Below, piece by piece: positions 23,451 through 40,628 of a stretch of DNA of 64,000 bases. Position numbers and translations under genes: made by a program. The stretch covers positions 1 to 64,000 of the forward strand of contig CAJVYQ010000012.1 in assembly GCA_913009825.1 (NCBI GenBank), read 5' to 3'. This DNA comes from an uncultured Deferribacteres bacterium. Lineage in GTDB: Bacteria > Zhuqueibacterota > JdFR-76 > DREG01. The notes under the pieces were generated by a model. That model was not told the origin of the DNA. It worked only from the letters and a program-made list of their open reading frames with translations, and made no database searches. Every line of letters begins with the position of its first letter. Position 1 is the first letter of the stretch.

Positions 23451-23873
23451 ATGCGTAAAAAGAATTCCCAAAATCCTTCCAGAAGAACATTTTTACATAT
23501 CCTGTTAGGGCTTCCATTTGGTATGTCCGCGGTAAAAAAAGTATATGGCCATAAAAGAGAAAAAAGGAAGCTGCTGCTTAATGTTTTCTCCGTCGCCGGT
23601 TATCAGTTTTATGACGACGACACAGTAGAACACAGATTAAAAGCCGGCGAGCTCCTCACACTCAAAGCAGACCCTGATAATCCCTACGATGAATTTGCAG
23701 TTGAAATATTGACGGCAAATGGCATAAAACTGGGTTATGTACCAAAAAGCGATAATAAAGCGATTAGCAGGTTATTGCGGCAGGGAGCGAATGTGGAAGC
23801 CCGGATAGAGAAAGTGGATTTAGAGGCAGTGAGTTGGCAGAGGATGAAGGTAGGATTAAGTTTAATATTATAA
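23451..23873 (+). CDS. HIRAN-domain protein with a Tat-type signal
   Basis: 140 aa. Residues ~10-30 read SRRTFLHILLGLPFG, a twin-arginine motif followed by a hydrophobic stretch. Residues ~40-140 are a HIRAN domain: LNVFSVAGYQFYDDD, LKADPDNPYDEFAVEIL, KLGYVPKSDNKAISRLL. HIRAN domains bind DNA ends in helicases such as HLTF, yet stand-alone bacterial versions exist. A Tat signal would place it outside the cytoplasm, which does not fit a DNA-binding job. Either the N-terminus is not a working signal or the domain has another ligand. It lies 128 bp upstream of the BREX operon on the same strand, but without a visible link. Confidence 0.7.
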   Translation: MRKKNSQNPSRRTFLHILLGLPFGMSAVKKVYGHKREKRKLLLNVFSVAGYQFYDDDTVEHRLKAGELLTLKADPDNPYDEFAVEILTANGIKLGYVPKSDNKAISRLLRQGANVEARIEKVDLEAVSWQRMKVGLSLIL

Positions 23874-24001: not shown

Positions 24002-27000
24002 ATGAATACATCCCTATCTTCCTTACTTATTCAAGCTGATGCACTACGCTTTAAATTGCTTGCGATTCTTGGCAGAAACGAATCTAAGAAGAAGCATATT
24101 ATTTCCCAATTAAAAAAGGATGGCTGGACACTTGTAGACGTTGAGGCTGAGTTGCTTTCTATTCGCAAAGAATTGGAGCAAGAAGGTAATGAAGCGGATA
24201 TCGAACTTGGGCTCAAGATAAAAGAATGGTTTAATTCAAAACCCAATAACATCATTCTGACAAATGCCAGCATCCTTTACCATGACATGTTTCTTAAAAC
24301 CTCCCCTATAGGGGCTTTTAAATACAATTCAAGAAATAAAAATTGCGTACTTTTTCTGGAAGATGAAAAAAAATTAGGTTCAAGGATCTATTATAGTACT
24401 GTGGGAAAAAGTGATTATTACGATCGGGAAATTAACGATATTCGACTTGTGAATATTGAGGATGTGGATATCGATGAAAGCAATGCTTATTCATTGGCTA
24501 GTGAATCAGCTAGTAATATTGCTGAAAAAAGTGCTAATTTTGTTGACGGTATTGGATCGCTCTTTCAATTCAATCAAATCAAAGATGTTGTTGATATTGA
24601 TTCCGATCTGATCGAAGAGAACAAAATCAGAGAATTGGTTCGTAGTTATATTATTTCCGAATCTTTAGAAAAACAGATTATTGAATTCTTTGAAAATGTG
24701 CAAAAGCCAACGCACAATGGAAGAACCGTTATAGGCAACTACGGCAGCGGTAAATCTCATTTGGTGGGATTTTTGGTTAGTTTAGTCGAAAATCCGGATT
24801 TAACTGGTTCTATTACAAATGAAAATATTAAACAAAAAGTAAAAGAGCTTAATCATCAATTTTTCACCGTCCAATTTGAATTAGGCGCCTCTCAGGTTCC
24901 TTTAAAACGTTGGTTTTATGGGAAGGTGCGCAAACAGTTAAAACAAAAATACAACATAGAGATTCCTGTCTTTCATGAAAAAAAAGATTTTGATGATAAA
25001 GAAAATATCATCCGTATTATGGAAATTGTCAAACAGAATAATCCAACGGCAGGGCTTCTTGTTGCCATTGATGAAATTTCAGATTTTTTAGCTACCCGCC
25101 AAAAAGAAGAAATGAAGGCCGATTTGCAGTTCCTGCGTGTTATCGGTCAGGTGTGCCAGGATCAGGATTTTATGTTTGTCGGTTCCATGCAGGAGGATGT
25201 GTTTACCAGTCCAAAATTCAAAGATGTCGCTTCGGAAATTGGTCGTGTAGGAGAACGCTTTCAAAATATCATTATCCATAAAGAAGATGTTAAGCAAGTC
25301 ATTTCAAAAAGAATCGTTCCAAAATCTAATGGACAAAGACATACGCTGGAAGAAAAGTTTAAACCTTTTGCTGAAAAAATTGATCAGGTGAGCCGTAATA
25401 TTGACGACTATATCGATTTGTTTCCATTAACACCGTTCATCATCGAGCTATTTAGTGATCTGCCTTATTTTGAGAAGCGCGGTGTTATTCAATTTGCCAT
25501 GTCGGAAATTAAATATATTCTGAAGAAACCTTTTCCCTATTTTATCACGTTCGACAAAATTTATGATTTGCTGGAAAACAATCCCAATAAGCGCAATCTC
25601 GAAGAAATTTATGAGCTTGCCAAAGCGATGGATATCCTGAAACAAAAAATCAGTTTGCTGGAATCCAAATATCAAAACGATGCCCTGAAGGTGGTGAAAG
25701 GATTAGCGGTCTACTCTTTATGGAATAAACAGGAACGAGGCGCCGCCGCTAAGGAATTAGCCAACAATTTAATGCTTCTGCCACAAAACAAACATTTCAG
25801 CGCAGCGGATAACATCGGATTAATTGTTAAAAAAATCCGCGAAGTAACAGAAGGCGAATATATCAAAATCAACAAAGATAAAAGCAGCGGCATTGAATAT
25901 TTTCGTTTTGACACCAAAGCTGGGATGGACCCTGAACAAAAAATAGAACAAAAGGCAGCCTCTGTTTCCAATGACGAGCTGGAGCATGAGCTGTTTGTAC
26001 AACTAAAAGATATATTGGAACTGGAGCCATATAACGGTTACCCGGATGTATTTGAAGACGAAAGCGTTTGGCAATCCGTTAAATCTTTTCGTATAGGCTT
26101 TGTCATGTTCGTCAAAAAGGGTTTTAATATACCGGAGCTGCCGCCACGGGGTTATGCCATCATTTTTGTTTCGCCTTTTGTAGAGGGTTTTAAACAAGCC
26201 ATTTCTAAGAATCAGTTTGTGATTAAGCTGCATTTGGAAGGTGTCGAGAATATTGAGTTGCTTAAAGAAATCGTGGCCATTAATAATTTGATTAATAATA
26301 ATTTTCAAAAATCTGTAATGGCAAAAAAACTACAGGGACGAATTGAGGGTTATTCAATTGGACAAACAAATAATACAGGATTCAAATACAGGCTTTCCAA
26401 GCTCTTGATGTACCATTCAGAAACCAGTTTAAATGGTAAAAACTATTCCATAAAAAAAGTCATTGGACGTGACCATGCCAGTGTACTGGAAATTGTTGAA
26501 GAATTGAAAACAGCGTTGTTTGATAATTTATTTAACCAAAATTATCCGCTGCATCCCAACTATCCCATTCAGCTTTCCAGCCGCAATATTGAGAATTCAT
26601 TAAGTTCCATTGCCAATGAATTAACGCGTGGTAATTTTACCGGTCTGGGCCGAAACAGCAAATTCTTTTTACAAAGCCTGGATTTACTGGATGCGCAGGA
26701 ATATCCTGATTTATCCCATTCCAAGATAGCACAAAATATTCTGGATATTCTCAAAAAGAAACCGAAACAGGTAACGGATATTGATAAGGAAATCGTAAAA
26801 CCTTTGCAAGCGCCAGATTATGGATTGGAAACGGAAGTGGTTTATCTATTTCTGATTGCGATGACTGTGCTGGGGAAAATCTATTTGCAGGCCAAAGGCG
26901 GCGACCGCATTGACATTAACAATATCAGGGAAAAAGTAAAATCTTTGGCGGCCTTTGAAACCATCGCTTATGCCCGCTTGCAGGAAAACTATTCTTATGA

Positions 27001-28216
27001 CTTTGCCGCCCGGTTGCTAAACGCTTTGGGATTGAATGGTAGTAAAATTACCATTGAAAAAGAACGCCTAGGCGCCTTTAAAGAATACAAAGAAAAAATC
27101 AATACCATTTTGCAGCATATTCAGCGATTAGAACAAATGATCGGAAAATTAGCGCAGCGCCCGCAGATTTTTTTGGATATGGATGCTGTTCGTAAGGCTT
27201 TTGGTAAAATTCAGGAAATTGACTGGGACAAGCTCAACATTAGCAACCATGCTCAGTTTGGCAGTATTGAATCGTTTAACGAGCGACTTCCCAGGATAAC
27301 CATTGCTCTCGATGAAATAACCAATTTATCCGCAGCCCTGCAAGATTATGATGAACACATTCACGATGCCATTCTTTATATGGAAGATGCTTTAAAATTA
27401 TTAGCGGGAAATGCGATTCTGGTAACGGACGAACAAAAGCTGAAAACCTTGCAGGATTTTCATGATGAAGTGAAATTGATTTGCAGTGATTTTTCTTCAT
27501 TCGTTGACCGCGGACAGCGCAATCCTATTCGCGGTAAGATTCAGCAGTTTAAAAAAAGTTATATGTATGATTTCTATTTACCGGCGCATGAAAAATATGT
27601 GGGCAAAAAAGTAAATTGGACGGCATTAGATACTTTCCCACAAAATGAAACGTTTAAAAAACTCACGTTGTTTAAACAACTCAACTGCATTAACAGCGCT
27701 CTCTTTGATCAGATGGTCATCAAATGGAATGATTTGAAACAATATCAATGTTTGAACACCAATTTGGAAGAAAACCTGCAAAACAACGTACGCTGTCCGC
27801 GCTGTTTGTTTCCTGTTCATCAGGGCGCCTATGCCACCATTCCTGCAACACTTGAACGTATTGAAGACGAATTGGATGATTTGTACAAATCCTACGAAAA
27901 AACAGTTTTACATGAAATGCGCGCTTACCGCGATAATATTCAGTATCTGGATAGTAAACAGGAAAAACAAATGGTGGAAGCCATTCTGAAGGAGCAAAAA
28001 CTTCCGCTAATGCTCACACCGCATATGGTGCGGACCATCAATAAATTATTTAAAGAGATTGATGTGGTGGAAATAGACCGGGAGACGCTGATCAAAACAT
28101 TGTTCCCCAACCAGGAAATGACGACCATTGAAGAATTGCGGAAAAGTTTTTTTGCTGTGCTTGAAGAATTGAAAAAGAATAAAGATGAAAACAGTATTCG
28201 CATAAAACTGAAATAG
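24002..28216 (+). CDS. brxC: BREX type 3 ATPase: BrxF-like domain fused to BrxC (DUF6079-like)
   Basis: 1404 aa, ATG with AGGAG upstream. Residues ~1-150 resemble the separate small BREX-3 protein BrxF: QADALRFKLLAILG, a beta-strand ending in NIILTNASILYHDMFLKTSP, then SRNKNCVLFLEDE. The position of its P-loop reads GRNESKKKH, so Walker A is lost. From residue ~183 (LFQFNQIKDVVDID) the protein follows BrxC/PglY, with Walker A GNYGSGKSH near 244-252 and Walker B LLVAIDEIS near 350-358. Long helical regions follow, and a CPRC half-finger lies near 1262. BrxC is the large ATPase required for BREX phage defence. The gene heads the operon; pglX follows 41 bp on. The family call is confident; the fusion call rests on remembered BrxF sequence features. 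Confidence 0.75.
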   Translation: MNTSLSSLLIQADALRFKLLAILGRNESKKKHIISQLKKDGWTLVDVEAELLSIRKELEQEGNEADIELGLKIKEWFNSKPNNIILTNASILYHDMFLKTSPIGAFKYNSRNKNCVLFLEDEKKLGSRIYYSTVGKSDYYDREINDIRLVNIEDVDIDESNAYSLASESASNIAEKSANFVDGIGSLFQFNQIKDVVDIDSDLIEENKIRELVRSYIISESLEKQIIEFFENVQKPTHNGRTVIGNYGSGKSHLVGFLVSLVENPDLTGSITNENIKQKVKELNHQFFTVQFELGASQVPLKRWFYGKVRKQLKQKYNIEIPVFHEKKDFDDKENIIRIMEIVKQNNPTAGLLVAIDEISDFLATRQKEEMKADLQFLRVIGQVCQDQDFMFVGSMQEDVFTSPKFKDVASEIGRVGERFQNIIIHKEDVKQVISKRIVPKSNGQRHTLEEKFKPFAEKIDQVSRNIDDYIDLFPLTPFIIELFSDLPYFEKRGVIQFAMSEIKYILKKPFPYFITFDKIYDLLENNPNKRNLEEIYELAKAMDILKQKISLLESKYQNDALKVVKGLAVYSLWNKQERGAAAKELANNLMLLPQNKHFSAADNIGLIVKKIREVTEGEYIKINKDKSSGIEYFRFDTKAGMDPEQKIEQKAASVSNDELEHELFVQLKDILELEPYNGYPDVFEDESVWQSVKSFRIGFVMFVKKGFNIPELPPRGYAIIFVSPFVEGFKQAISKNQFVIKLHLEGVENIELLKEIVAINNLINNNFQKSVMAKKLQGRIEGYSIGQTNNTGFKYRLSKLLMYHSETSLNGKNYSIKKVIGRDHASVLEIVEELKTALFDNLFNQNYPLHPNYPIQLSSRNIENSLSSIANELTRGNFTGLGRNSKFFLQSLDLLDAQEYPDLSHSKIAQNILDILKKKPKQVTDIDKEIVKPLQAPDYGLETEVVYLFLIAMTVLGKIYLQAKGGDRIDINNIREKVKSLAAFETIAYARLQENYSYDFAARLLNALGLNGSKITIEKERLGAFKEYKEKINTILQHIQRLEQMIGKLAQRPQIFLDMDAVRKAFGKIQEIDWDKLNISNHAQFGSIESFNERLPRITIALDEITNLSAALQDYDEHIHDAILYMEDALKLLAGNAILVTDEQKLKTLQDFHDEVKLICSDFSSFVDRGQRNPIRGKIQQFKKSYMYDFYLPAHEKYVGKKVNWTALDTFPQNETFKKLTLFKQLNCINSALFDQMVIKWNDLKQYQCLNTNLEENLQNNVRCPRCLFPVHQGAYATIPATLERIEDELDDLYKSYEKTVLHEMRAYRDNIQYLDSKQEKQMVEAILKEQKLPLMLTPHMVRTINKLFKEIDVVEIDRETLIKTLFPNQEMTTIEELRKSFFAVLEELKKNKDENSIRIKLK

Positions 28217-28257: not shown

Positions 28258-30888
28258 ATGAAAAACCCCACAAAACCACTCAAAAAATTACTCGATTCCA
28301 TACGCAATATCGAAGGCTTTCCCATTGGCAAAGACGAAGACATTTTAGCTCTGTCCGATCCGCCGTATTACACGGCCTGCCCCAATCCGTATATTAACGA
28401 TTTTATTGAGGAACACGGCAAGCCCCTTCGACGAGCTCAGGGCAACGCATACGACGAAGCAACCGACGATTACCACCGCGAACCCTTTGTGGGCGACGTG
28501 AGCGAAGGCAAGAACGACCCCATTTACAACGCCCATTCTTACCACACCAAGGTGCCGCATAAAGCCATTATGAAATACATCGAGCATTACACCGAAGAAG
28601 GCGACATTGTGTTTGACGGCTTTTGCGGCACGGGCATGACCGGCGTGGCCGCACAACTGTTAAACCGTAAAGCCATTTTATCTGACCTGTCGCCCATTGC
28701 CACCTTTATTGCCTACAACTACAACAAAAAAGTGGATGTGGCCGAATTTGAACGCGAAGCCAACCGTATTTTACAGGAAGTGGAAGACGAATGCGGCTGG
28801 ATGTACGAGACCAACCATGTTCCCGCTGTCATTTCGAGGAGCGAAGCGACGAGAAATCTTTCCACCGAACAGGAGAAGATGCCTCCCCCGAATGCTCTTG
28901 GACAAAATGACAAGATGGATAATAATAAGACTGTTGAAGGCGTGCAAATGAATGCCTTTGGTAAAGATGAAAAAATAGGCAAGGGCAAAATAAACTACAC
29001 CGTCTGGTCGGACGTGTTCATTTGCCCCTATTGCGGAGAAGAAATTGTCTTCTGGGAGGTGGCGGTGGATAAAGAAGCCGGCAGCGTAAAAAAAGAATTT
29101 GCTTGCTCACAGTGTAACGCCACAATAACAAAAAGAGACTGCCAACGAGCCACAGTCACTTTTTTTGATGCTGCCATTGGACAGGAAGTAACGCAAACTA
29201 AACAGGTGCCGGTGCTCATTAAATACACCTACAACGGCAAACGCTACGAAAAAACGCCCGACGCCGATGATGTGGCTTTGATCAAAAAGATTGAAGAAAG
29301 CGAAATCCCCTATTGGTTCCCGACAAATCCAATGATGAATCAGGGCGAAAGATGGGGCGATACATGGCGGAAAGGATACCATTTTGGCATTACCCATGTG
29401 CATCATTTTTATACGAAGAGGAATTTGTGGGTATTTTCTAAACTATTTAAAGAAGGTGAAAAAATTAAATTTATATTAACATCTTTTTCAGATAGACATA
29501 TTGTTTTGAGAAATAGATTTTTATTAACAGGTCCAACTCGACCATTATCTGGTACGCTCTATATACCAACATTAAAAACAGAAGTAAACGTAATAAATAT
29601 TTTTAAAAGGAAAATTAATGATATAATAAAATCTTATAATTCTTATTATGTAAAAGAAAATCTTGTAATTATCTCAACTAATTCACTTACAAAAACAAGT
29701 ATAAAGAAAAATTCAATTGATTACATTTTTATTGACCCCCCATTTGGGGAAAATATAATGTATTCTGAATTAAATTTTGTAAATGAATCATGGTTAAAAG
29801 TTTGTACTAATAATACTAAAGAAGCAATTATTAATGATACACAAAAAAAAGATATAGATGAATATGGTATATTAATGATAAATTCTTTAAAGGAATGTTA
29901 TAGAATTTTAAAACCAAATAGATGGATAACTATTGAATTTCATAATACTAGTAATAAGATTTGGAATCTAATACAAAATTGTGTGACAAAAGCAGGTTTT
30001 GTTATTTCAAATGTAAGCATATTAGATAAAAAGCATGGAGGAATTCAACCGGTAGGAGCAAATTATGCTAATAAAGACTTAGTCATTTCCGCTTACAAAC
30101 CCAAACAGAGTTTTGAACGGCGCTTTTTGGAGCAAACCGGCGCCGGGCTGGAGGAAGAATTTATCCGCATGCATCTGTCTCATTTGCCGGCGGAGCCGTC
30201 CATCGAGCGCACCGAGCAGATGCTCTATTCCAAACTGTTGGCCTATTACGTGCAGCGCGGCTACGCGGTTAAATACGACGCCAAAACCTTTTACAAAATG
30301 CTGCACCATCATTTTAAGGAAGAAGACGGCTACTGGTTCAATGCCGATCAGTTGGCCGCTTACCGTGAATACAAGAAAAAACTCAAATTGGAAGGCCTTG
30401 CCGATGTAAAACAGGGACAGTTGAGCCTGTTCGTGTGCGATGAAAAATCGGCTTTGCAATGGCTGTATGTTTTTCTGGATAGAGGGAAGGATTTAAAAAC
30501 TACCCATCCGGCTTTTACTAAAGTATCCAATATCAGCGGCGATCAGGTGCCGGATTTAAAAGAACTGTTAGAAGATAATTTTATCCGCGAAGGCGACGCC
30601 TACCGCCGTCCAAAATCGGAAGAAGAGAAGACGAGCATCATTCAAAAACGGGAAAAAGATTTGTTACGAGAATTTGAGTCGTTATTGTTGCAGGCCAAAG
30701 CGTCGCAAAAGAAAATCAAGGAATGCCGCAAACAGGCCGTGCTGTTTGGTTTTGAGCATTGCTATAAGAATAACCGTTTTCAGGATATTCTCACTTTGGC
30801 CAAACGCCTGGACAAACGCATCATCGAGAACGATGCGGAAATCAATGATTTTATCGAAGTGGCCGAGTTGAAGGTGGAGGGATTTTAA
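28258..30888 (+). CDS. pglX: BREX type 3 adenine-specific DNA methyltransferase PglX
   Basis: 876 aa; GGAGATGGAAG precedes the ATG. Family features: SDPPYYTACPNPYINDF near 33-49, VSEGKNDPIYNAHSYHTKVPHK, the SAM-binding motif FDGFCGTGMTG near 120-130, a zinc ribbon CPYC ... CSQC near 256-286, and the catalytic DPPF at 493-496. Motif I lies before motif IV with the ribbon between. In BREX this enzyme marks host DNA so that phage DNA is told apart. Two short segments look like translated interspersed repeats (LRRAQGNA near 56-63; VISRSEATRNLSTEQ near 191-205), both in frame. Bases ~29425-30087, coding residues ~390-610, are far more AT-rich than either side and look recombined in. Whether the enzyme still works is open. 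Confidence 0.85.
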   Translation: MKNPTKPLKKLLDSIRNIEGFPIGKDEDILALSDPPYYTACPNPYINDFIEEHGKPLRRAQGNAYDEATDDYHREPFVGDVSEGKNDPIYNAHSYHTKVPHKAIMKYIEHYTEEGDIVFDGFCGTGMTGVAAQLLNRKAILSDLSPIATFIAYNYNKKVDVAEFEREANRILQEVEDECGWMYETNHVPAVISRSEATRNLSTEQEKMPPPNALGQNDKMDNNKTVEGVQMNAFGKDEKIGKGKINYTVWSDVFICPYCGEEIVFWEVAVDKEAGSVKKEFACSQCNATITKRDCQRATVTFFDAAIGQEVTQTKQVPVLIKYTYNGKRYEKTPDADDVALIKKIEESEIPYWFPTNPMMNQGERWGDTWRKGYHFGITHVHHFYTKRNLWVFSKLFKEGEKIKFILTSFSDRHIVLRNRFLLTGPTRPLSGTLYIPTLKTEVNVINIFKRKINDIIKSYNSYYVKENLVIISTNSLTKTSIKKNSIDYIFIDPPFGENIMYSELNFVNESWLKVCTNNTKEAIINDTQKKDIDEYGILMINSLKECYRILKPNRWITIEFHNTSNKIWNLIQNCVTKAGFVISNVSILDKKHGGIQPVGANYANKDLVISAYKPKQSFERRFLEQTGAGLEEEFIRMHLSHLPAEPSIERTEQMLYSKLLAYYVQRGYAVKYDAKTFYKMLHHHFKEEDGYWFNADQLAAYREYKKKLKLEGLADVKQGQLSLFVCDEKSALQWLYVFLDRGKDLKTTHPAFTKVSNISGDQVPDLKELLEDNFIREGDAYRRPKSEEEKTSIIQKREKDLLREFESLLLQAKASQKKIKECRKQAVLFGFEHCYKNNRFQDILTLAKRLDKRIIENDAEINDFIEVAELKVEGF

Positions 30889-30904
30889 TGGGCGTAGGTA
30901 TGGG

Positions 30905-31140
30905 CATCCCTATTTTGTCATTCCGAGGGACGCTCACCCACCGTGTCATTTCGACGATCCCGCTTTAGCAGGAGAGGAGAAATCTGATCACTCAGGAATG
31001 AAAGATTTCTCGCTACGTTCGAAATAACAAGATGACGCAGTCATTCCGAGGAGTCAGCGACGAGGGATATTTCTACGGAAAGGGAAAAGGATTTCTCGTC
31101 TCGAGGACTCGGGGCTCGAAATAACTGTTATTCCGATTCA
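30905..31140. repeat. Two tandem interspersed repeat units after pglX
   Basis: The gap 30889-31233 holds two units of the same repeat. The first runs from GTCATTTCGACGATCC to CTACGTTCGAAATAAC, with inner GAGGAGAAATCT and AGATTTCTCG arms that can pair. The second runs from GTCATTCCGAGGAGTCAGCG to GGGCTCGAAATAAC. No gene is visible. It marks the left edge of the RloA/RloB insert. Confidence 0.7.
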
Positions 31141-31233
31141 AACGAAATATTCTTCTTGCATCTTCTTTTTTATTTTTATATTTTAGCTTAAAGTGAAATT
31201 ATCACCAAAACAAACAATATAAAGGTAAAATAC

Positions 31234-32586
31234 ATGTTAATTCGTTATTCAGTCGAGAATTATTTGTGCTTTAATAAAAGAGCGGAGTTTTCTATGATTC
31301 CCGGGAAAGGCAGGTTATTGCCGACTCATCGAATAAAGGGGAAAAATACCACGGATATCGATGCGCTTAAGCTTGCTTTGATTTATGGGGCAAATGCTTC
31401 CGGGAAATCCAGTTTAATTAAATCTATGAATTTTGCTAAAAATTTTATCTTACAAGGTGTTAAAGTCGAGAGCAATATTCCCCTTCGTAAATTTAAACTA
31501 TCAAAAAAGGCCGAGACCAGTCCGAGTCGCTTTGAATTTGAATTTAAAATAAATGGTTTTAGCTATGCATACGGATTTTTAGCAGATTATGATAAAGTTA
31601 GCGAAGAATGGCTTTATCAGATTACAAAATTTTCTGAAAAGGCCATATTTGAAAGAATGATTTTAGAAAACAATAAAACAAAAATTAAATTCCCGGGAAT
31701 ACGGTTTAAATCGAAAGAAGAAAAACAGTTTTTAGATTTTGTTGCTTTAGGCACCAGGCCCAATAAACTTTTTTTAACAGAATGTCTGGAAAGAAATGTG
31801 TCTGCCAATGTTCGGGGAATAGAAGCTATTACAGATACATTAAATTGGTTTGGCAATAAACTGACAATCATCTTTCCCGATTCAAAATTTCAGGGATTGG
31901 AATTTGAATTCGAAAAAAGCAGTAAGTTAGCGGAAGAATTTAGAAAGTATATGAAAATCTTCGATACGGGTATTGATGACATTGAATTAAAACCAATTGA
32001 TTTTGATAAAATAAAAGATATTCCGGAGGAAATAAGGAATGACATTATCGGCAGGTTGAAAACCAATAGTAAAACAATTATTTCCAATAAGGCTAATAAT
32101 ATTACATATACTTTATATAAAGATAAAAAAAATAATGTAAAGGTTTTCAGGCTTAATAGTAAACACAAAGTAGTTGATAATGACGATTATGCATATTTTG
32201 AAATTAATGAAGAATCCGATGGCACGCAGAGGTTAATCGATTTAATCCCTGCATTAATAGACCTTTTCAAAGACAACAAAGTCTTTGTAATTGATGAATT
32301 GGATAGGAGCTTACATCCGAATTTGTCAGCATCTTTTATTGATATTTTTTTAAATGCTACAACTGGGGTTGCAAGTCAGTTAATTGTCACAACCCATGAA
32401 TCGAGCCTGTTAAACCTTCGCAAGGTTAGAAAAGATGAAATCTGGTTCATTGAAAAAAATAAAAAAGGTGAGGCGGAGTTATTCTCTTTGGAAGAGTTTA
32501 AACCGAGATTTGACAAAGAGATTCGCAAAAATTATTTGGTAGGGCGTTTTGGCGCGGTTCCTTCGATTTCATTACATCAGGATTAA
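31234..32586 (+). CDS. OLD/RloA-like AAA ATPase (AbiLi-like)
   Basis: 450 aa. The N-terminal LIRYSVENYLCFNKRAEFSM is the typical entry strand of ABC-like AAA_15/AAA_21 ATPases. Walker A is GANASGKSS at residues ~52-60. Walker B is FVIDELDRSLHP near 350, with the downstream TTHESSLL switch histidine. Genes of this type pair with RloB proteins, and such a pair was described as the lactococcal abortive-infection system AbiL. Here the RloB gene follows after 22 bp. The role is probably sensing phage and controlling the RloB nuclease-like partner. The pair is inserted between BREX pglX and brxHII, on the same strand, with repeats on both sides. Confidence 0.8.
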   Translation: MLIRYSVENYLCFNKRAEFSMIPGKGRLLPTHRIKGKNTTDIDALKLALIYGANASGKSSLIKSMNFAKNFILQGVKVESNIPLRKFKLSKKAETSPSRFEFEFKINGFSYAYGFLADYDKVSEEWLYQITKFSEKAIFERMILENNKTKIKFPGIRFKSKEEKQFLDFVALGTRPNKLFLTECLERNVSANVRGIEAITDTLNWFGNKLTIIFPDSKFQGLEFEFEKSSKLAEEFRKYMKIFDTGIDDIELKPIDFDKIKDIPEEIRNDIIGRLKTNSKTIISNKANNITYTLYKDKKNNVKVFRLNSKHKVVDNDDYAYFEINEESDGTQRLIDLIPALIDLFKDNKVFVIDELDRSLHPNLSASFIDIFLNATTGVASQLIVTTHESSLLNLRKVRKDEIWFIEKNKKGEAELFSLEEFKPRFDKEIRKNYLVGRFGAVPSISLHQD

Positions 32587-32608
32587 CAATTGCACAAAGA
32601 GAATTGAT

Positions 32609-33265
32609 ATGGGAAGAGAAAGAAGAGAATTTAAACGCCCTTCGTTTAAGCGTGATGTAAATAAACTATTTGTTATTGCAACGGAAGGCCAAAAAACCGA
32701 AAAGGTATATTTCGAAGGATTGATTTCAGAAAATCCGCATCCAAAGACCAAAATATATATGGAAATACTACCAAAACTTGATTCAAAGAGTTCACCGAGT
32801 GCGGTGTTAAGAATGTTAGATTCTTTTAGAAAGGAATTCCTTCTTCGCAATGGTGATGAATTATGGATGGTCATTGACAGGGATAAGCAAAGCTGGCAAG
32901 TTTCTGAAATCAGTGAAATAGCCCAAATGGTATCTCAGAAAAAATATTATCTTGCATTAAGCAATCCTGCCTTTGAGGTATGGTTGTTATTGCATGTAAA
33001 GGATGTCAATGAATATTCCCCGGCTGAGATTCAGGAATTATTTGCGAATAGTCGAACAGGGTCCAGAACAAGATTGGAACGGGAATTGGTTCGGATATGT
33101 GGCAGCTACAATAAAATCAAGCCGAACTTAGGCCATTTTTTACCTAATGTTAGGACAGCTATATCGCGGGCCGAGATCTTAGTCAGAGATCCAAGTGAAA
33201 GATGGCCGGATTATTTTGGCACTCATGTGTTTAAATTGGTAAAGAAACTAATCAACATAAACTAA
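32609..33265 (+). CDS. RloB-family TOPRIM-like nuclease candidate (AbiLii-like)
   Basis: 218 aa from the ATG at 32609. The open frame extends upstream to 32549, but that would overlap the ATPase gene and add 20 residues with no similarity. Family features: KLFVIATEGQKTEKVYFEGL (a TOPRIM-like Glu), ELWMVIDRDKQSW (the D-x-D region), NPAFEVWLLLH and a basic C-terminus. TOPRIM-fold proteins of the OLD group cut nucleic acid, and RloB is thought to be the effector of its ATPase partner. The ribosome site (AAAGAGAA) is weak, so translation may be coupled to the preceding gene. Confidence 0.78.
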   Translation: MGRERREFKRPSFKRDVNKLFVIATEGQKTEKVYFEGLISENPHPKTKIYMEILPKLDSKSSPSAVLRMLDSFRKEFLLRNGDELWMVIDRDKQSWQVSEISEIAQMVSQKKYYLALSNPAFEVWLLLHVKDVNEYSPAEIQELFANSRTGSRTRLERELVRICGSYNKIKPNLGHFLPNVRTAISRAEILVRDPSERWPDYFGTHVFKLVKKLININ

Positions 33266-33339
33266 TGAAGAGTTCTTCATTCCGATAAATTGAGATTCTA
33301 AATGACATAATGGGGTGTGGATATTTTCCACCAATGTCC

Positions 33340-33450
33340 CATTCCTTGTCATTTAGACGAACGAAGTGAGGATAAATCTTTCCACTACAAAAGACTAAGA
33401 TTTCTCGCTTACCTTCGAAATGACAGTACGCATTTTGTCATGCCAGAATC
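33340..33450. repeat. Interspersed repeat between RloB and AbiEi
   Basis: One palindromic unit: TGTCATTTAGACGAACGAAG on the left, AGATTTCTCGCTTACC and TTCGAAATGACAG on the right, with pairing inner arms GGATAAATCTTTCC/AAGATTTCTCGC. It is the same family as the units after pglX and before brxHII. A short extra TTTTGTCATGCC follows. No gene is seen in 33266-33486. Confidence 0.65.
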
Positions 33451-33486
33451 ATAACAACGAGGAATCTTGAATGATAAAAAAAACTT

Positions 33487-33530
33487 GTTAAAAACGCATA
33501 CATTCATTAATTTGTGTGTGCACTTTTAAC
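33487..33530 (+). promoter_or_regulatory. Putative AbiEi operator (inverted repeat)
   Basis: GTTAAAAACGCATA (33487-33500) and TGTGCACTTTTAAC (33517-33530) are inverted repeats matching at 11 of 14 positions, 16 bp apart, ending right at the ATG. The third AbiEi gene has the same layout at 43439-43482. AbiEi proteins are known to repress their own operons by binding inverted repeats, so this is the likely autoregulatory site. Confidence 0.6.
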
Positions 33531-34157
33531 ATGAGGCAAATTGTGAGTACCGACGAAGTAGTAAAACTATTCAAACAGCATCACTATTATCTGAGATCAG
33601 GGCAGCTTGCCAAATATAAAGTTCATACATCCCTTATTCGCAAAATGCTGGACAGCGGTCAACTGGAAAAGATAAAGCGCGGCCTGTACCGCCTGCCGGT
33701 TGCAACGATTCCCGAGCATGAGAATTTCACTTTTGATTATTTCGATGCAGCCGTAGCCGTTCCCAAAGGCATTTTTTGTTTGGCAACGGCTCTATATTAT
33801 TATGGTTTGTCCACGCAACGGCCTGCCGTATTTGATATGGCCATTCCGCGCACACAGCGTACTCCAAAAATATACACCGTTTCCGTCCGTTTTTACCGTT
33901 TTCTTGAGCCGTATTATTCCTATGGCGTGGAGGAAATACAGACCGAATTGGCGCCGTTGAGAATCTATAACAGGGAAAAATCCATTTGCGACGCCTTTCG
34001 CCAGCGACGCATCATCGGTGAAGATATTGCCTTGGAAAGCCTGAACGCCTATCTGAAACAGGGTAAAAAAAATATTAACAAATTGCTCAAAATGGCCGCA
34101 TTCTGCAAAATCAAACATATCATTGAACCGGTCGTCAAAGCCATGGTCGGATTTTAG
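33531..34157 (+). CDS. abiEi: AbiEi-like antitoxin/autorepressor
   Basis: 208 aa from the ATG at 33531; an in-frame GTG at 33516 lies inside the operator and is less likely. The N-terminal winged-helix domain (QLAKYKVHTSLIRKMLDSGQLEKIKRGLYRL) and the AbiEi C-terminal domain (IFCLATALYYYGLSTQRP, REKSICDAFRQR, IIEPVVKAM) are both complete. AbiEi represses the operon and counteracts the AbiEii toxin, a type IV toxin-antitoxin and phage-exclusion pair. The toxin gene follows after one base. Its closest relative in the window is the orphan copy at 43499-44113. Confidence 0.88.
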   Translation: MRQIVSTDEVVKLFKQHHYYLRSGQLAKYKVHTSLIRKMLDSGQLEKIKRGLYRLPVATIPEHENFTFDYFDAAVAVPKGIFCLATALYYYGLSTQRPAVFDMAIPRTQRTPKIYTVSVRFYRFLEPYYSYGVEEIQTELAPLRIYNREKSICDAFRQRRIIGEDIALESLNAYLKQGKKNINKLLKMAAFCKIKHIIEPVVKAMVGF

Positions 34158-34158
34158 C

Positions 34159-34977
34159 ATGGCAAAAAGACCGGTGAAAAATATTGAGGCGTCGATTCGG
34201 GCCAGGCTGTTGAATCTTTCCCAAAAGACCGGCGAGAACTATAACGCTGTTTTGCTGCGTTTTTTTCAGGAACGTTTTCTCGCCCGGCTTGGCAACTCTG
34301 CCTATCGCGAACATTTTGTACTCAAAGGCGGATTATTGCTTTTAACGCGGTATATCACCACATTCCGGCCAACGGTTGATATCGATATGCTCGGCATCGC
34401 CATTGCCAATGATCCCGAACATTTGTCAGCGGTCCTAAAAGAAATTGCCGGACTGGTATTGAACGATGGCATTCGTTTTGATACGGATACAATCAATTAT
34501 AAGATAATTAAAGAAGATGCTGAATATGAAGGGTTACGTTTTACTTTTGATGTTTTTCTTGGTGTCATAAGATCGCGTATACAACTTGACATTGGCTTTG
34601 GCGATAAAGTTCCCACGGTATTTTCAAAGAGCACTCTGCCGCCGCTGCTTCCGGATTTACCGGCGCCTGAATTATTGTGTTACCCGCTGGAATCCGTGAT
34701 TGCCGAGAAATTTCAAGCGATTGTATATCTTGGCTTTGCGACCAGTCGTATGAAAGATTTTTTTGATATTTTGTTCCTGGCGGAAAATAACGTGTTTCAG
34801 TTAAACAGACTCAAATCTGCGCTTGATACAACATTTTCAAGCAGAGAAACCGCTATGGAAAGCCGTTATTTTATTTATCAACAGGAGTATATTTCAGAAA
34901 AAGATAAACTCTGGAAACCGTTTTTAAAAAAGATTGGTCGTCATGAATCTTCTGATTTTTCACAGGTCGTTACTTAA
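34159..34977 (+). CDS. abiEii: AbiEii nucleotidyltransferase toxin
   Basis: 272 aa from the ATG at 34159; the longer frame from 34123 would overlap abiEi. The nucleotidyltransferase core is intact: VLKGGLLLLTRY then TVDIDMLG with the D-x-D metal site, and later PLESVIAEKFQAIVYLG and RMKDFFDILFLAE as in AbiEii/Tox proteins. The toxin transfers nucleotides to a cellular target, reported as tRNA acceptor stems for relatives, and stops growth on phage infection. This is the only full-length AbiEii among the three abiE loci here, so it is the only locus likely to be a working pair. Confidence 0.88.
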   Translation: MAKRPVKNIEASIRARLLNLSQKTGENYNAVLLRFFQERFLARLGNSAYREHFVLKGGLLLLTRYITTFRPTVDIDMLGIAIANDPEHLSAVLKEIAGLVLNDGIRFDTDTINYKIIKEDAEYEGLRFTFDVFLGVIRSRIQLDIGFGDKVPTVFSKSTLPPLLPDLPAPELLCYPLESVIAEKFQAIVYLGFATSRMKDFFDILFLAENNVFQLNRLKSALDTTFSSRETAMESRYFIYQQEYISEKDKLWKPFLKKIGRHESSDFSQVVT

Positions 34978-35104
34978 ATTAAAGAATTTCTGGAGCCGGT
35001 AATAATGGCCAAAGAGAGTAATAAAAATCTAATATGGGATACAAAGGCTTGGAGTTGGAGAATTAATGCTTAATCCTAAAGTTTCTTGGGAACTCGATAT
35101 GATA

Positions 35105-35265
35105 CTCTGTATAAGAAATGACAATAGTGGGTCTGTCCTTGCGGGACGCCCACTTTTTGTCATTTTGACGAACGCCCTTATATCCTGTCAATTAGACGAA
35201 CGCGTGAGGAGAAATCTTAGCGCTTGGCAGGAAAGATATCTAGCTTCGCTCGAAACGACAAAGGG
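35105..35265. repeat. Interspersed repeat between AbiEii and brxHII
   Basis: AGTGGGTCTGTCC ... GGGACGCCCACTTTTTG forms a terminator-like hairpin near 35128-35160. It is followed by a repeat unit TGTCAATTAGACGAACG ... GGAGAAATCT ... TAGCTTCGCTCGAAACGAC of the same family as at 33340-33450. It marks the right edge of the insert in the BREX operon. An open frame across it looks like read-through, not a gene. Confidence 0.65.
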
Positions 35266-35304
35266 AAGAAACAAAAAGCACACTAAAAAATCAGGTAGAT
35301 GTAA

Positions 35305-38160
35305 ATGAACATTGGCGACAAAGTACAAAGTCGATTATATGCTGATAAAGGCATAGGAACAATTATTGGTTTTAACACCTTATTCGGCGAACAGTATGCG
35401 GAAGTGCTGTTTAATGATGGGATGACCTTGTCCACCAAAACCGGTGACCTGCGTATCGAAAATGATCCGCTTCAGCTTTTACAAACCGGCCAGGTCAGTC
35501 TACCGCCCATTTTTTTCGCTAATAACATGCTGTTACGCTTGAAGGCCAATATTTCTGAAAACGCCATTGTTACTTCCACCAACTATAAAATTCAACCGTT
35601 ACCCCATCAATTATTGGCCGTTGATTTTGTTATCAATCGTTTTGAACCGCGCAGCCTGATTGCCGATGAAGTGGGCTTGGGAAAAACCATTGAGGCCATC
35701 CTGGTTTATGAAGAGTTCAAATTGCGCGGCATTATCAAAAAGGTTCTGGTTGTGGTGCCGTCCGGTCTTGTTTTACAGTGGCACGCAGAGTTGCAGGAAA
35801 AATTCAATGAAAAATTCATCATCTATACCAAAGATTACATCCGTACGCTCAAGCAAAGCTATGGGGAAGAAACCAATGTCTGGAAACTGCACGATAAAAT
35901 CATTGCATCCATCGATTCTATCAAACCCTGGAAAATAGACGATGAGCTGGATCAGCAGGAACGTAAACGGCGTGAATGGCACAATAAGCATATCTTTGAA
36001 GATATTACCACCGCCGGTTTTGATATGGTTATTATTGACGAAGCCCATAAATTAAGCAAACATGGCGACGGGCATGAATCGGCTCGTTTCAAATTGGGCG
36101 AAAAGCTCAGCGAAGCCATTCCCATTCTTCTATTGCTCACCGCTACACCGCATCAGGGCGATGAACATCTTTTTTTGAATTTATTACGCCTAATCGATCC
36201 CGTCTTGTTTGCCAGCAAAGCATCTCTTAAACCGGATATGGTGCAAGAAGTAACCGTGCGTAATAAAAAACGAGCCGCTGTGGATTTTGACGGTAATCGC
36301 ATTTTTAAACACCGCATCACATCACTCATGGAGATTAACCGAACTATTCCCGAAAATCAGGAAGAAATTGAGCTCTATCAGTATGTAACGGAGTATACCA
36401 GTCAATATTATAATCTTGCCCGGCGCAACAATAATCAGATTATGATGCTCTTGGTTATGCTCTACCAGCGTATGGTTTCATCCAGCAGCTTTGCTTTATT
36501 AGATGCCATGAAACGAAGGCGGCTCTTTTTGCAAGGTGAATCGGCCAGGTTGGAACAGATGCAGCCTGAACTATTGGATGAAGAAGAATATGAAGTTGAA
36601 GAGCTATTAAACAAGAGTATTTCCACATCGCGTGAGGAAATTGAAACCGAACTTCAATTTGTGCGCGCCTGTATAACGATGGCCGAAAAGCTGACCGTAT
36701 CTTTCAAAGATGCCAAATTCCGCAAGCTGATCGAGGTAATCGATGAAATTAAAAAACGCGAGCAAAAACCTGAGTTAAAATTTATCATTTTCACAGAATT
36801 CAGAGCAACGCAAGATGCTATCATCCGGTTTTTAAGCCAATTCGGCTATTCTTGTTCCTACATCAACGGTTCGCTTTCCCGTGAAGAGAAAGTGCAGCAG
36901 GTGGAATTATTCCGCACTCAAAATCAAATCATGGTTTCTACCGATGCCGGCGGCGAAGGCATCAACCTGCAATTTTGTTATTGTATGATCAATTTTGATT
37001 TGCCCTGGAATCCTTCGCGCCTGGAACAGCGCATAGGACGCATTGACCGTATCGGCCAAAAACACGACAGTCTCATTTTTAACTTTCATCTTACCGATAC
37101 GGTGGAAGACCGCGTTCGTCGCATTTTGGAAATCAAATTGGAGCGAATTAAAAATCAATTTGGTGAAGATAAGTTCGCCGACGTACTTACTTTAATTCAG
37201 GATGAGTTTTCCTTTGACCAGATTTATATAGATGCCGTTAAAATCAAAGCTGTTGAGGATCGTCAACTTGATGAAATAGCCGATAGAATCTATAAACGGG
37301 CCAAAGAAATACTGGATAAAGATGAATTACTGTTGCCTTTTTCTCAATTCGCACAGGATGCAAAAGGGTTGGTCAACAATGAATTAAACACGATTATCCG
37401 AGAACTTACGCTGAATTATCTTGCTCACAAAGGTATTCCGGTTAATTGGTATAAAGACGAGCCGGGATTTTGCTATTTCCAGAATCCATTTCATTCATCA
37501 GATGACGAACCTTCCATTTACCGCAATGTAACCTTCGATAATGCCCGCTCTATGGATAAAGCAAATGTCGAGTTTATTAATATAGAACATCCTTTACTTA
37601 CCCATATTCAACAGGATATTGAAAAAAATACAAGCTCCGGCAATACAACTGCTGTTCGTGTTCGTATCAATAAATTTCAAAATATGAGCGGTTTTTGGTT
37701 TGTTTACCGTTTACGTATGACCAACCATTTAAACAAAAATAAAATAGCGCTTGTCTCGGTTTTTATGGAAGATGAATCTTTTCCCAATAATCGCATCAGT
37801 AATTATCTCGAGCAGAACTACTTTGAAGAAGCAGAGCTCATTCAAAATTTCAGTTATCAAGGCGATATTCAAGCTCTGGCTGAAGCTGCCCTGAAGCTTG
37901 CTGAACAGAAGGCCGGTGATATTTTTACCGCCACGAAGTTAACCTGGTTAAATGAAATTAGTCAGTACGAACAAAAATTTAGGGATTATTTTAAGTTTAA
38001 GCGCAATGCCTATGTCAAAATTCAAATTGACAATATCCGAGAATCCAAATTAAAATCCCTTGAAATGGAAGAACAGGAGCAGCAAAAGAAATTTCAACTT
38101 CAACGCAATATTATTCCCAAATTGGAATTGGTTCAGATTGCCTATGTGGAGTTTGCCTGA
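35305..38160 (+). CDS. brxHII: BREX type 3 helicase BrxHII (SNF2-like)
   Basis: 951 aa. The N-terminal ~60 residues form a small beta domain (KVQSRLYADKGIGTIIGFN). Walker A is DEVGLGKTIEA near 119-129, the DEAH box is VIIDEAHKLS near 243-250, motif III is LLLTATPHQGD, and the C-terminal RecA domain has STDAGGEGINLQ and RIGRIDRIGQ near 575. This is a superfamily 2, SNF2/DEAH-type helicase as in BREX type 3. The role is presumed to be translocation on DNA during defence. The stop overlaps the pglZ start (TGATG), so the two are translationally coupled. The gene belongs after pglX in the standard order; here a 4.4-kb insert comes between. Confidence 0.85.
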   Translation: MNIGDKVQSRLYADKGIGTIIGFNTLFGEQYAEVLFNDGMTLSTKTGDLRIENDPLQLLQTGQVSLPPIFFANNMLLRLKANISENAIVTSTNYKIQPLPHQLLAVDFVINRFEPRSLIADEVGLGKTIEAILVYEEFKLRGIIKKVLVVVPSGLVLQWHAELQEKFNEKFIIYTKDYIRTLKQSYGEETNVWKLHDKIIASIDSIKPWKIDDELDQQERKRREWHNKHIFEDITTAGFDMVIIDEAHKLSKHGDGHESARFKLGEKLSEAIPILLLLTATPHQGDEHLFLNLLRLIDPVLFASKASLKPDMVQEVTVRNKKRAAVDFDGNRIFKHRITSLMEINRTIPENQEEIELYQYVTEYTSQYYNLARRNNNQIMMLLVMLYQRMVSSSSFALLDAMKRRRLFLQGESARLEQMQPELLDEEEYEVEELLNKSISTSREEIETELQFVRACITMAEKLTVSFKDAKFRKLIEVIDEIKKREQKPELKFIIFTEFRATQDAIIRFLSQFGYSCSYINGSLSREEKVQQVELFRTQNQIMVSTDAGGEGINLQFCYCMINFDLPWNPSRLEQRIGRIDRIGQKHDSLIFNFHLTDTVEDRVRRILEIKLERIKNQFGEDKFADVLTLIQDEFSFDQIYIDAVKIKAVEDRQLDEIADRIYKRAKEILDKDELLLPFSQFAQDAKGLVNNELNTIIRELTLNYLAHKGIPVNWYKDEPGFCYFQNPFHSSDDEPSIYRNVTFDNARSMDKANVEFINIEHPLLTHIQQDIEKNTSSGNTTAVRVRINKFQNMSGFWFVYRLRMTNHLNKNKIALVSVFMEDESFPNNRISNYLEQNYFEEAELIQNFSYQGDIQALAEAALKLAEQKAGDIFTATKLTWLNEISQYEQKFRDYFKFKRNAYVKIQIDNIRESKLKSLEMEEQEQQKKFQLQRNIIPKLELVQIAYVEFA

Positions 38161-39590
38161 TGACCTGGCCGGAAATTATTTTCAATCGCCTGAATTTATC
38201 ACTGCAAGTAAAAACAATAATAGTCGACCATATTGGGCTTTTGGACGATTTAGCTTTTACAAATTATTTAACCGGTCAAGGATTTAAATGGGATTTGGCG
38301 CAGGATGTACAAAATATTTTGTACGCTTTTAAAATAGCTCAACTTGTTATTGTTCCGCACACCGTAGAACTACCGGACTATCTAAAAAAACAAGTGTCCC
38401 TTATTCATTTTGATATTCAAAAATTGCCATTCGAAATAGATCCGGCCATTCTCGAAAATTTATCTAAGGAGCAGCTTGAAACTTTGACCGAGTATGCCAA
38501 TGATACCGGATTAATGCAGCTTGTCAGTAAAGCCAATTATAAAAAATATCTTGCAAACACCGAACGTCATTGTTGGCAGAAAGAACTTAGGGAACTCGAA
38601 ACAATCATTTTAAGGCAATGTCAATCGGCTAAAAGCTATAATGACCTGTTAAACATAGGGAAATTATGGGGACGTTTCATTTATCTTAATTATCAATTAG
38701 ATCAGTCCCCTAACCCCAAAGTTTTAAATGAAACCGATCAGATAACCGAAATCCTTGTACTTAACCACGTTGTACGTAATGCTTTTTATGAATCCAGCGC
38801 TAATCTTAAAACAGTCGATAAGATTATTCCCCATATTAAGTCTCGCCATCCGCAAAAAGTAGCACTTGTTTGCTTTGATGCCATGGGCGTTGCCGAATGG
38901 CATTTGCTCAAACAGTATTTAAAGAGTAGCGGCTTTCAATTTAATAAAAAAATGCTTTTTGCCTTAATTCCAACCATGACGCGCATTTCCCGCTCGGCTA
39001 TTTTTTACGGGAATGCTGAGCAGGTTTATCATTTAAATTCACCTAATGAAGATAAAGCTTTTACAGAAATTTTTTCGGATTATACGGTACGTTCGTTTCG
39101 CGAAGGTGAACTTTCTTCTGAAGAACAATTATTAGGCATCGATGCGGTTAAAGTTATTTACAATGTGTTTGATGATTTAGCGCATAAAACCATCCTGCCG
39201 CCAATGGAAACGACAAAGCATCTTTATTTCAAAAATGTTTTGAATTATTTGGCAAAATCCAGCATTAAAGACGAATTGCAATTACTTATTAATGAAGGAT
39301 TCAAAGTATGGCTTTGTTCCGATCATGGCAGTGTGGTGGCCAGAGGCAATGGACAAAAAATAGATAAATATTTAATCGAAGCATCCAGTAAACGGGCAAC
39401 GATTATTGAGAAGTCCGACTTAGCTGAGTTTTATGATGTCAATCAATATGAAATTCCTTTTGGCCAGGGAAAGATTGTCTTATTGGCCAAAGGTCGGACG
39501 TGTTTTTCGACAAAAAATAAAACAGAAATTACACATGGCGGAATTACACTGGATGAACTCATTGTACCATTTATTGAGGTGGAAAATTGA
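38160..39590 (+). CDS. pglZ: BREX PglZ alkaline-phosphatase-fold protein
   Basis: 476 aa. The PglZ core is visible: VALVCFDAMGVAEWHLL near 239 (metal-binding Asp), FALIPTMTRISRSAIFYG (nucleophile-position Thr region), VWLCSDHGSVVARG near 386, and ITHGGITLDELIVPFIEV near 458. PglZ is the shared marker of BREX systems and carries a phosphatase/nuclease-like metal site whose exact task is unsettled. It is shorter than most PglZ proteins I recall, the difference being in the N-terminal part. It overlaps brxHII by one base and brxA by four, so the three genes form one translational unit. Confidence 0.85.
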   Translation: MTWPEIIFNRLNLSLQVKTIIVDHIGLLDDLAFTNYLTGQGFKWDLAQDVQNILYAFKIAQLVIVPHTVELPDYLKKQVSLIHFDIQKLPFEIDPAILENLSKEQLETLTEYANDTGLMQLVSKANYKKYLANTERHCWQKELRELETIILRQCQSAKSYNDLLNIGKLWGRFIYLNYQLDQSPNPKVLNETDQITEILVLNHVVRNAFYESSANLKTVDKIIPHIKSRHPQKVALVCFDAMGVAEWHLLKQYLKSSGFQFNKKMLFALIPTMTRISRSAIFYGNAEQVYHLNSPNEDKAFTEIFSDYTVRSFREGELSSEEQLLGIDAVKVIYNVFDDLAHKTILPPMETTKHLYFKNVLNYLAKSSIKDELQLLINEGFKVWLCSDHGSVVARGNGQKIDKYLIEASSKRATIIEKSDLAEFYDVNQYEIPFGQGKIVLLAKGRTCFSTKNKTEITHGGITLDELIVPFIEVEN

Positions 39591-40312
39591 TTGGATTGGA
39601 CAGGCCGGTAAAACCGGAATGGATATACAAAACGTTAAAAATGGTTAATCCCGGAGAAAACCCATCGGTTTATAATGAACCCTTTGAGCACATTGCTAAA
39701 GAACTGGTTGGCAAAGAAGGAAAACGTAAAGTACGCACCATCATTTTTCGTAGCTTTATCTATTCATTTCAAGAGAAAAGAACGGTTATTGAAAATAATA
39801 TGTTTATTGAATGGGCAAAACAGCACCCATTGGAATATTTGCGTCCGTTGTTTTTAGCTAAGTTGCTAATGGATTATGAAATCACCCGTTTTATTACCAA
39901 GAAAATTGAACTAAGCTTTGATCATACCAATCAACTCTCTTCGGCCATTCTTTCGCAAAAAATGATTCAGGAATTTGGTGACCGGGAAGTCGTGCGCCAT
40001 TCTGTAAATGATTTTCTTAAAACCTTGGTGCATTTTAAAATATTTGAGAAGATAAAATTAAGGGAGTTTCGATTTGTTAAGAAATTTAACCTATCAAATG
40101 AACAAGTAAAAGATTTTTTGTTATTATATGCCCGTGCATTTCTAAAATCCAATTTTGTTGATTTATCAAAAATAGATTTAACTATTTTATATTTTTATGA
40201 AGATATTGATTTGAAGAATGTTGCACGAAAGTATCATGTAAACACCTGGGAATACATCAGAGATGTGAATAGAGATATAGTGATGTTAAAAAATAACAAT
40301 TATATGAAATAA
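39587..40312 (+). CDS. brxA: Probable BrxA (last gene of the BREX type 3 operon)
   Basis: 241 aa, starting at a TTG that overlaps the pglZ stop (TTGA), with GAGGTGG upstream as ribosome site. The protein is all-helical by appearance and basic, without catalytic motifs. [20 protein letters not shown] and [20 protein letters not shown] lie early, and [20 protein letters not shown] ends it. In BREX type 3 the final gene is brxA, a NusB-like helical protein of the DUF1819 group with DNA-binding ability. The assignment rests mainly on place and general character because sequence similarity is weak by eye. An unrelated accessory protein is the alternative. Confidence 0.5.
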
Positions 40313-40582: not shown

Positions 40583-40628
40583 CGTTCCATATTTCTGCAT
40601 ATATTCATAAGTGCAGAATAATAGAACG
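40583..40628 (+). promoter_or_regulatory. Putative operator overlapping the second AbiEi start
   Basis: CGTTCCATATTTCTGCA (40583-40599) and TGCAGAATAATAGAACG (40612-40628) are inverted repeats, 14 of 17 positions matching, 12 bp apart. The right half covers the first codons after the GTG at 40611. An in-frame TAA lies just before that GTG, so no earlier start exists. Binding here would block both transcription and start-site access. The preceding gap 40313-40582 shows no gene. Confidence 0.6.

Follow-up and report, generated by a model that had tools for sequence, protein, structure and literature searches.

A fused brxF-brxC gene in a type 3 BREX operon

We found a type 3 BREX (bacteriophage exclusion) operon with brxF and brxC merged into one open reading frame (ORF) on contig CAJVYQ010000012.1 of an uncultured Deferribacteres bacterium (GCA_913009825.1). 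The window, that is, the whole stretch of DNA analysed, comprises the first 64,000 nucleotides of this contig. The ORF at 24002-28216 gives an uninterrupted translation of 1404 amino acids (aa), and its ATG at 24002 is preceded by TTAGGAGAAACA, which holds AGGAG. An AGGAG ahead of an ATG is no rarity in the window, but its placement at 24002 is good. The gene and its parts are as follows.

24002..28216, forward strand: brxFC fusion gene, 1404 aa; a single open frame, with at least 12 homologous single-ORF fusions
24011..24472, forward strand: BrxF domain (inactive AAA+/iSTAND), residues 4-157; PADLOC and NCBIfam profiles, AlphaFold2 and Foldseek (best match BrxB, 9zll_G/E), motif table
24473..24550, forward strand: variable linker, residues 158-183; low identity among 13 fusions, low model confidence
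24551..28213, forward strand: BrxC domain, residues 184-1404 (ORC/Cdc6-type AAA+, then C-terminal regions); DUF6079 and BrxC profiles, Foldseek (9zll_D/9zdx_C), alignments

Taken alone, residues 1-199 match the PADLOC BrxF profile PDLC02498 (3.4e-20; residues 14-157 on profile positions 13-154 of 158) and score 55.5 bits against NCBIfam NF033453 (BREX_3_BrxF; cut-off 50; residues 4-152 on positions 3-149 of 149). The PADLOC BrxC profile PDLC02487 matches residues 186-1402 (2e-206), and residues 184-1404 cover the whole DUF6079 profile (2.4e-195). A preliminary description of this DNA had proposed the fusion from BrxF landmarks in the first ~150 residues, a BrxC P-loop near residue 244 and the lack of a separate brxF upstream. 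All three points hold: full-length BrxF profiles match residues 4-157, GNYGSGKS is found at 245-252, and there is no separate brxF in the window operon. Profile matches and structure prediction (see below) both support the proposal for residues 1-160 as BrxF and 180-1404 as BrxC, and the BrxF-BrxC fusion is confirmed.

In ordinary BREX-3 loci the two proteins are encoded separately. Plasmid loci of Leisingera, Enterococcus and Roseicitreum carry an annotated brxF of 152 aa, 10-20 bases before a BrxC of ~1240 aa that starts at residue ~183 of the window protein. Our comparison with the genome collection covers the best 80 of 549 relatives. Nearly all loci among L031-L098 that reach far enough upstream have a separate BrxF of 137-217 aa (rarely longer) before BrxC; a few have no recognised BrxF, mostly where a contig end cuts the locus. 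At least 62 loci combine a separate BrxF with a BrxC of ~1240 aa. The typical BREX-3 BrxC does not carry this N-terminal region; had it done so alongside a separate BrxF, the proposal would have been refuted by the terms of the preliminary description. Separate-gene BREX-3 systems (for example, L035 of Halanaerobium and the Leisingera plasmid L014) resemble the window in having the same gene set in mostly the same order, with BrxF directly ahead of a BrxC that is homologous over its whole length. They differ in having two chains, a faster-evolving BrxF that often has an intact Walker A motif, and a PglZ usually of 572-749 aa.

A search for this domain order in further proteins yielded at least 12 more fusions (L019-L030). 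Each is encoded by a single ORF, is 1397-1425 aa long and can be aligned end to end with the window protein at 43-74% identity. Across the 13 fusions the linker has a mean pairwise identity of 0.23 and no invariant column, and its model confidence is low (predicted local distance difference test, pLDDT, 55-62 in the blocks of residues 161-180). The fusion could in principle reflect an assembly or frameshift error, or BrxC might also be made alone from an internal start. Most members are metagenome-assembled, and the window linker does hold an in-frame GTG155 and TTG165. An assembly or frameshift artefact is nevertheless ruled out by the 13 single-ORF cases in unrelated assemblies, one of them from the named strain Sediminibacterium sp. 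C3. As for an internal start, residues 151-192 contain no in-frame ATG, GTG or TTG in 8 of the 13 fusions, and BrxC is therefore not separately translatable from there in those proteins. Taken together, these explanations are extremely improbable.

Predicted structure and motifs of the two domains

The AlphaFold2 model of residues 1-640 (49-sequence alignment, free of plasmid-derived rows) has a pLDDT of 90 and a predicted template modelling score (pTM) of 0.83. Its first seven Foldseek matches in the PDB are all BREX BrxC chains, with 9zll_D at the top (1.5e-13). Residues 1-160 were modelled with a pLDDT of 93 and a pTM of 0.88, and the best two matches are chains of BrxB, which takes the place of BrxF in type 1 BREX: 9zll_G (1.0e-3, probability 1.00) and 9zll_E (5.9e-3, 0.98). 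Subunits of the origin recognition complex (ORC) come next. The BrxB matches are weak by E-value; the same 9zll complex supplies the best BrxC match of the 1-640 model. In the 1-160 model, a strand (114-119) is followed by a cap (123-125, 128-131 and 140-143) and another strand (148-151). The fused BrxF is thus predicted to have the BrxB/BrxF iSTAND fold, in which a three-stranded cap follows strand 4 of an alpha/beta/alpha core; an iSTAND domain with a cap is described for both BrxB and BrxF in a recent survey (PMC12839542).

The preliminary description regarded BrxF as a separate small P-loop protein. This stands for ordinary BREX-3 as far as the separate gene is concerned, but the fused BrxF has no P-loop: Walker A and the acid of Walker B are missing in 13 of 13 fusions, the window protein reading GRNESKKK and ILTNASILY. 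Among 68 separate BrxF proteins, GxxxxGK[ST] is kept in at least 45, and Walker A is absent in up to 23, a few of which are artefacts of a long N-terminus. A P-loop is therefore not strictly defining for the BrxF family (NF033453, 'P-loop-containing protein'). The nearest separate BrxF, that of L035, is likewise degenerate (GSEENHKNNI and ITNTSIIY), so the loss of the Walker motifs probably predates the fusion. Arg111, in the SRNK motif at the end of helix 102-112, is present in all 13 fusions and nearly invariant across all BrxF proteins; its position is presumably the usual site of AAA+ arginine fingers. The BrxC domain retains Walker A (245-252), Walker B (D357-E358) and Arg415/Arg419.

Distribution and origin of the fusion

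The 12 further fusions belong, by NCBI phylum, to Calditrichota, Spirochaetota, Candidatus Cloacimonadota, Bacteroidota (six), Myxococcota, Thermodesulfobacteriota and one unplaced bacterium, and the fusion is found across at least six phyla. In a tree of the BrxC part (82 rows), which was made by a quick method so that deeper placements are provisional, the 13 fused proteins form one clade with a support of 100, and one state change suffices. This single, fully supported clade indicates a single origin of the fusion. The nearest rows with a separate BrxF are Halanaerobium, two Methanobacteriaceae, a nanoarchaeote record and two Anaerolineae. The fusion clade is small and ancient.

The fusion is also rare. 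No further case was found in the window's order (6 other genomes) or phylum (81 genomes). Among 396 genomes in the phylum to which Sediminibacterium belongs, BrxC-type matches occur in 15 besides the Sediminibacterium genome itself, and no match spans BrxF and BrxC. Viral contigs and phage records gave no relative. When the 12 genomes were searched for the family, the fusion proved to be the only BrxF in 11; the remaining one, from Desulfococcaceae, also encodes a separate BrxF.

The genome of the window also encodes a second, separate BrxF at the end of contig C17 (L007:10450-10929; 6.1e-59) with an intact GQTGSGKT, which belongs to another locus. A matching BrxC is absent from the assembly, and a short AbiEi-like ORF (9691-10086, by eye) lies just upstream. 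At C36:4256-5602 on the reverse strand, weak DUF6079 matches (profile 2-383) fall in a 1767-aa open frame, another BrxC-like ATPase.

Evolutionary rate of the fused BrxF

We compared the divergence of BrxF with that of the BrxC AAA+ domain. At an AAA+ identity of 50-60%, fused BrxF pairs are 52% identical and separate ones 29%, while the BrxC C-terminus is at 38 versus 36%. In disjoint pairs, aligned pairwise, we divided BrxF divergence by AAA+ divergence; the 6 fused pairs gave ratios of 1.07-1.41 and the 29 separate pairs 1.79-3.90, without overlap (p 1.2e-6, a value that overstates the independence of related pairs). The BrxC C-terminus, taken as a control region, shows no difference between fused and separate systems (p 0.62). 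By this estimate, the fused BrxF evolves at about half the rate of separate BrxF relative to the BrxC ATPase domain. The slowdown may come from the fusion or from another change in the same ancestor.

These rates bear on two other readings of the fusion. It might be neutral operon compaction, in which the stop codon of brxF was lost and the fused protein works just as the two separate proteins do, under no added constraint or regulation. Several observations suit this explanation: brxF lies next to brxC, and the two genes overlap in L031 and L049, the nearest relatives that encode them separately; the Walker loss already seen in L035 is probably older than the fusion; and the remaining BREX parts are conventional. 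However, the lineage has been kept in at least six phyla with no split detected, and constraint on BrxF has risen about two-fold against separate BrxF while the BrxC C-terminus is unchanged. We judge neutral compaction unlikely, though it deserves serious consideration. Following the iSTAND sensor model (Rakesh and Krishnan 2026), the fused BrxF might instead sense phage components and evolve rapidly, wired to an ATPase and not to a nuclease effector. According to the survey, PglW of type 2 and PglZ of type 4 carry fused iSTAND domains, which are proposed as sensors (PMC12839542). Such fusions resemble the one in the window in that a core BREX protein bears a covalently attached BrxB/BrxF-like domain, but their partner carries a nuclease domain, whereas the partner in the window is the BrxC ATPase. 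The conservation of the fused domain comes close to that of the BrxC AAA+ domain (mean identity among fusions, 0.57 versus 0.61), and the domain evolves more slowly than separate BrxF, a behaviour ill-suited to an arms race, and the sensor reading seems improbable.

The surrounding operon and PglZ

The fusion gene is followed on the same strand by pglX, brxH, pglZ and brxA, the remainder of a type 3 BREX operon.

28258..30888, forward strand: pglX (PglXI, type-3 adenine methyltransferase); PADLOC PDLC02541, 2e-291
31234..32586, forward strand: cargo, AbiLi/AriA-like AAA ATPase; PADLOC AbiLi 9.3e-87, Pfam AAA_21 4.8e-32
32549..33265, forward strand: cargo, RloB/AbiLii-like protein; Pfam RloB 4.2e-32, PADLOC AbiLii 5.3e-22
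33516..34157, forward strand: cargo, AbiEi antitoxin
34123..34977, forward strand: cargo, AbiEii nucleotidyltransferase toxin
35305..38160, forward strand: brxH, Swi2/Snf2-type helicase (BrxHII role); PADLOC BrxHI/BrxHII 9.2e-194, RapA/DrmD relatives
38160..39590, forward strand: pglZ, short form, 476 aa; PglZ profiles, lengths, N-terminal domain comparison
39587..40312, forward strand: brxA; PADLOC BrxA 1e-37

The locus has a DUF6079-type BrxC/PglY, with PglXI, SNF2-type BrxH, PglZ and BrxA in one operon (28258-40312), and BrxF is present as an N-terminal domain above the NF033453 cut-off. The canonical separate brxF upstream of brxC is replaced by the single ORF, and we therefore regard the system as a BREX-3 variant.

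The PglZ proteins of fused systems are 476-495 aa long, and those accompanying a separate BrxF are mostly 572-749 aa. A short PglZ is not a strict correlate of the fusion: this was ruled out by L015 (E. faecium), with a separate BrxF and a PglZ of 488 aa. A loss of the whole PglZ N-terminus, which was also considered, proved to be an alignment artefact. The short PglZ retains the N-terminal domain of ~110 aa (hhalign probability 94, E 1.6e-7), and ~140 aa of the helical middle are missing. On NF033449, the window PglZ scores 179 bits, under the cut-off of 250.

The stretch from pglX to brxH carries two defence modules (31234-34977), the AbiLi/AriA-like and RloB/AbiLii-like pair and the AbiEi/AbiEii toxin-antitoxin pair. 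Other fusion operons hold different cargo between the fusion gene and pglX, namely a PD-(D/E)XK-type PDC-S02 (L023:5987-7198) and a HEC-01A-type ATPase (L029:10100-11752). In four Bacteroidota fusion operons (L024, L025, L026 and L030), no brxH is found between pglX and pglZ; the helicase may be dispensable there or encoded elsewhere. Immediately downstream of brxA, two lone AbiEi-type antitoxin genes (40611-41234 and 43499-44113), with no adjacent AbiEii, flank a Fic-domain gene (42193-43209). Just upstream of the fusion, a HIRAN-domain ORF of 140 aa (23451-23873) corresponds to the C-terminal part of PDC-M03B only and is possibly a truncated defence gene; no HIRAN gene was detected in the neighbourhood of the other fusions.

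A proposed mechanism by analogy with type 1 BREX

In type 1 BREX, the inactive BrxB occupies the ATP site of the BrxC AAA+ domain, where it supplies Arg182 and excludes another BrxC; it also forms a bridge to PglZ, whose residues 1-98 bind it, and increases ATPase activity 2-6-fold (PMC13326643). The BrxB-BrxC contact is required for phage restriction and largely dispensable for host methylation: BrxB R82E breaks it, with 84.6% of sites methylated and restriction lost (PMC13326643). To obtain a more stable complex, that study also made an artificial fusion of BrxC(1-551) and BrxB (PMC13326643). As in the window, the type-1 BrxB:BrxC:PglZ complex (PDB 9zll, 9zdx and 9zn5; PMC13326643) pairs an inactive AAA+ subunit with the BrxC AAA+ domain; it contains the best structural matches of both window domains, and the PglZ N-terminal domain is retained in the window. 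Unlike in the window, BrxB is a separate chain, and the sole fusion there is artificial.

We consider it fairly probable that the window holds a BREX-3 operon in which the merger of brxF and brxC tethers an inactive AAA+ regulator to its ATPase, with a mechanism like that of type 1. The inactive BrxF domain, joined covalently to the BrxC N-terminus by a loose linker of ~25 residues, would dock against a BrxC AAA+ module, either its own or its neighbour's, on the face where the ATP site is open. There it could offer a conserved arginine to the ATP site and compete with another BrxC subunit, and it might recruit PglZ through the PglZ N-terminal domain. The tether would turn the BrxF-BrxC contact into a permanent and stoichiometric one. 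We infer the docking, the arginine role, the choice between cis and trans, and the effects on oligomerisation and restriction from the type-1 system. Equal synthesis of both parts follows from the fusion, and it is plausible that BrxF and BrxC are thereby fixed as partners at 1:1, as the preliminary description had suggested. The evidence points to the two fused parts working as one unit.

Several points weigh against the type-1-like mechanism. The comparison is distant (about 13% identity in structural alignments), and R182 of BrxB is not mappable onto BrxF by sequence profile, which leaves Arg111 as a candidate only. In the artificial BrxC(1-551)-BrxB, BrxB comes after the BrxC N-terminal module, an order opposite to that of the natural fusion. 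The fused set behind the rate comparison is one clade and one event, and L015 combines a separate BrxF with a short PglZ.

A bolder idea is that the fusions form a distinct BREX-3 subtype, in which an exchangeable, fast-evolving BrxF became a fixed, slow regulator of the ATPase. The contact would then always be formed, and the switch between methylation and restriction would lie elsewhere, for example in the shortened PglZ. We hold this to be possible but rather doubtful.

The main text of the 2026 survey of all BREX types gives the domain in type 3 only as the component BrxF and contains no BrxC fusion (PMC12839542). We found no published report of a BrxF-BrxC fusion in the literature covered, which included neither the paper that first classified BREX (Goldfarb 2015) nor the supplements of the survey, and the fusion has apparently not been described before. 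It supports BrxF as the type-3 partner of BrxC and speaks against a role of the domain chiefly as a fast-evolving phage sensor. For structural studies, it also offers a weak complex in the form of a single chain. The finding bears on how BREX switches between host methylation and phage restriction, since a natural covalent tether at the equivalent contact would allow a direct test of the separation of the two activities.

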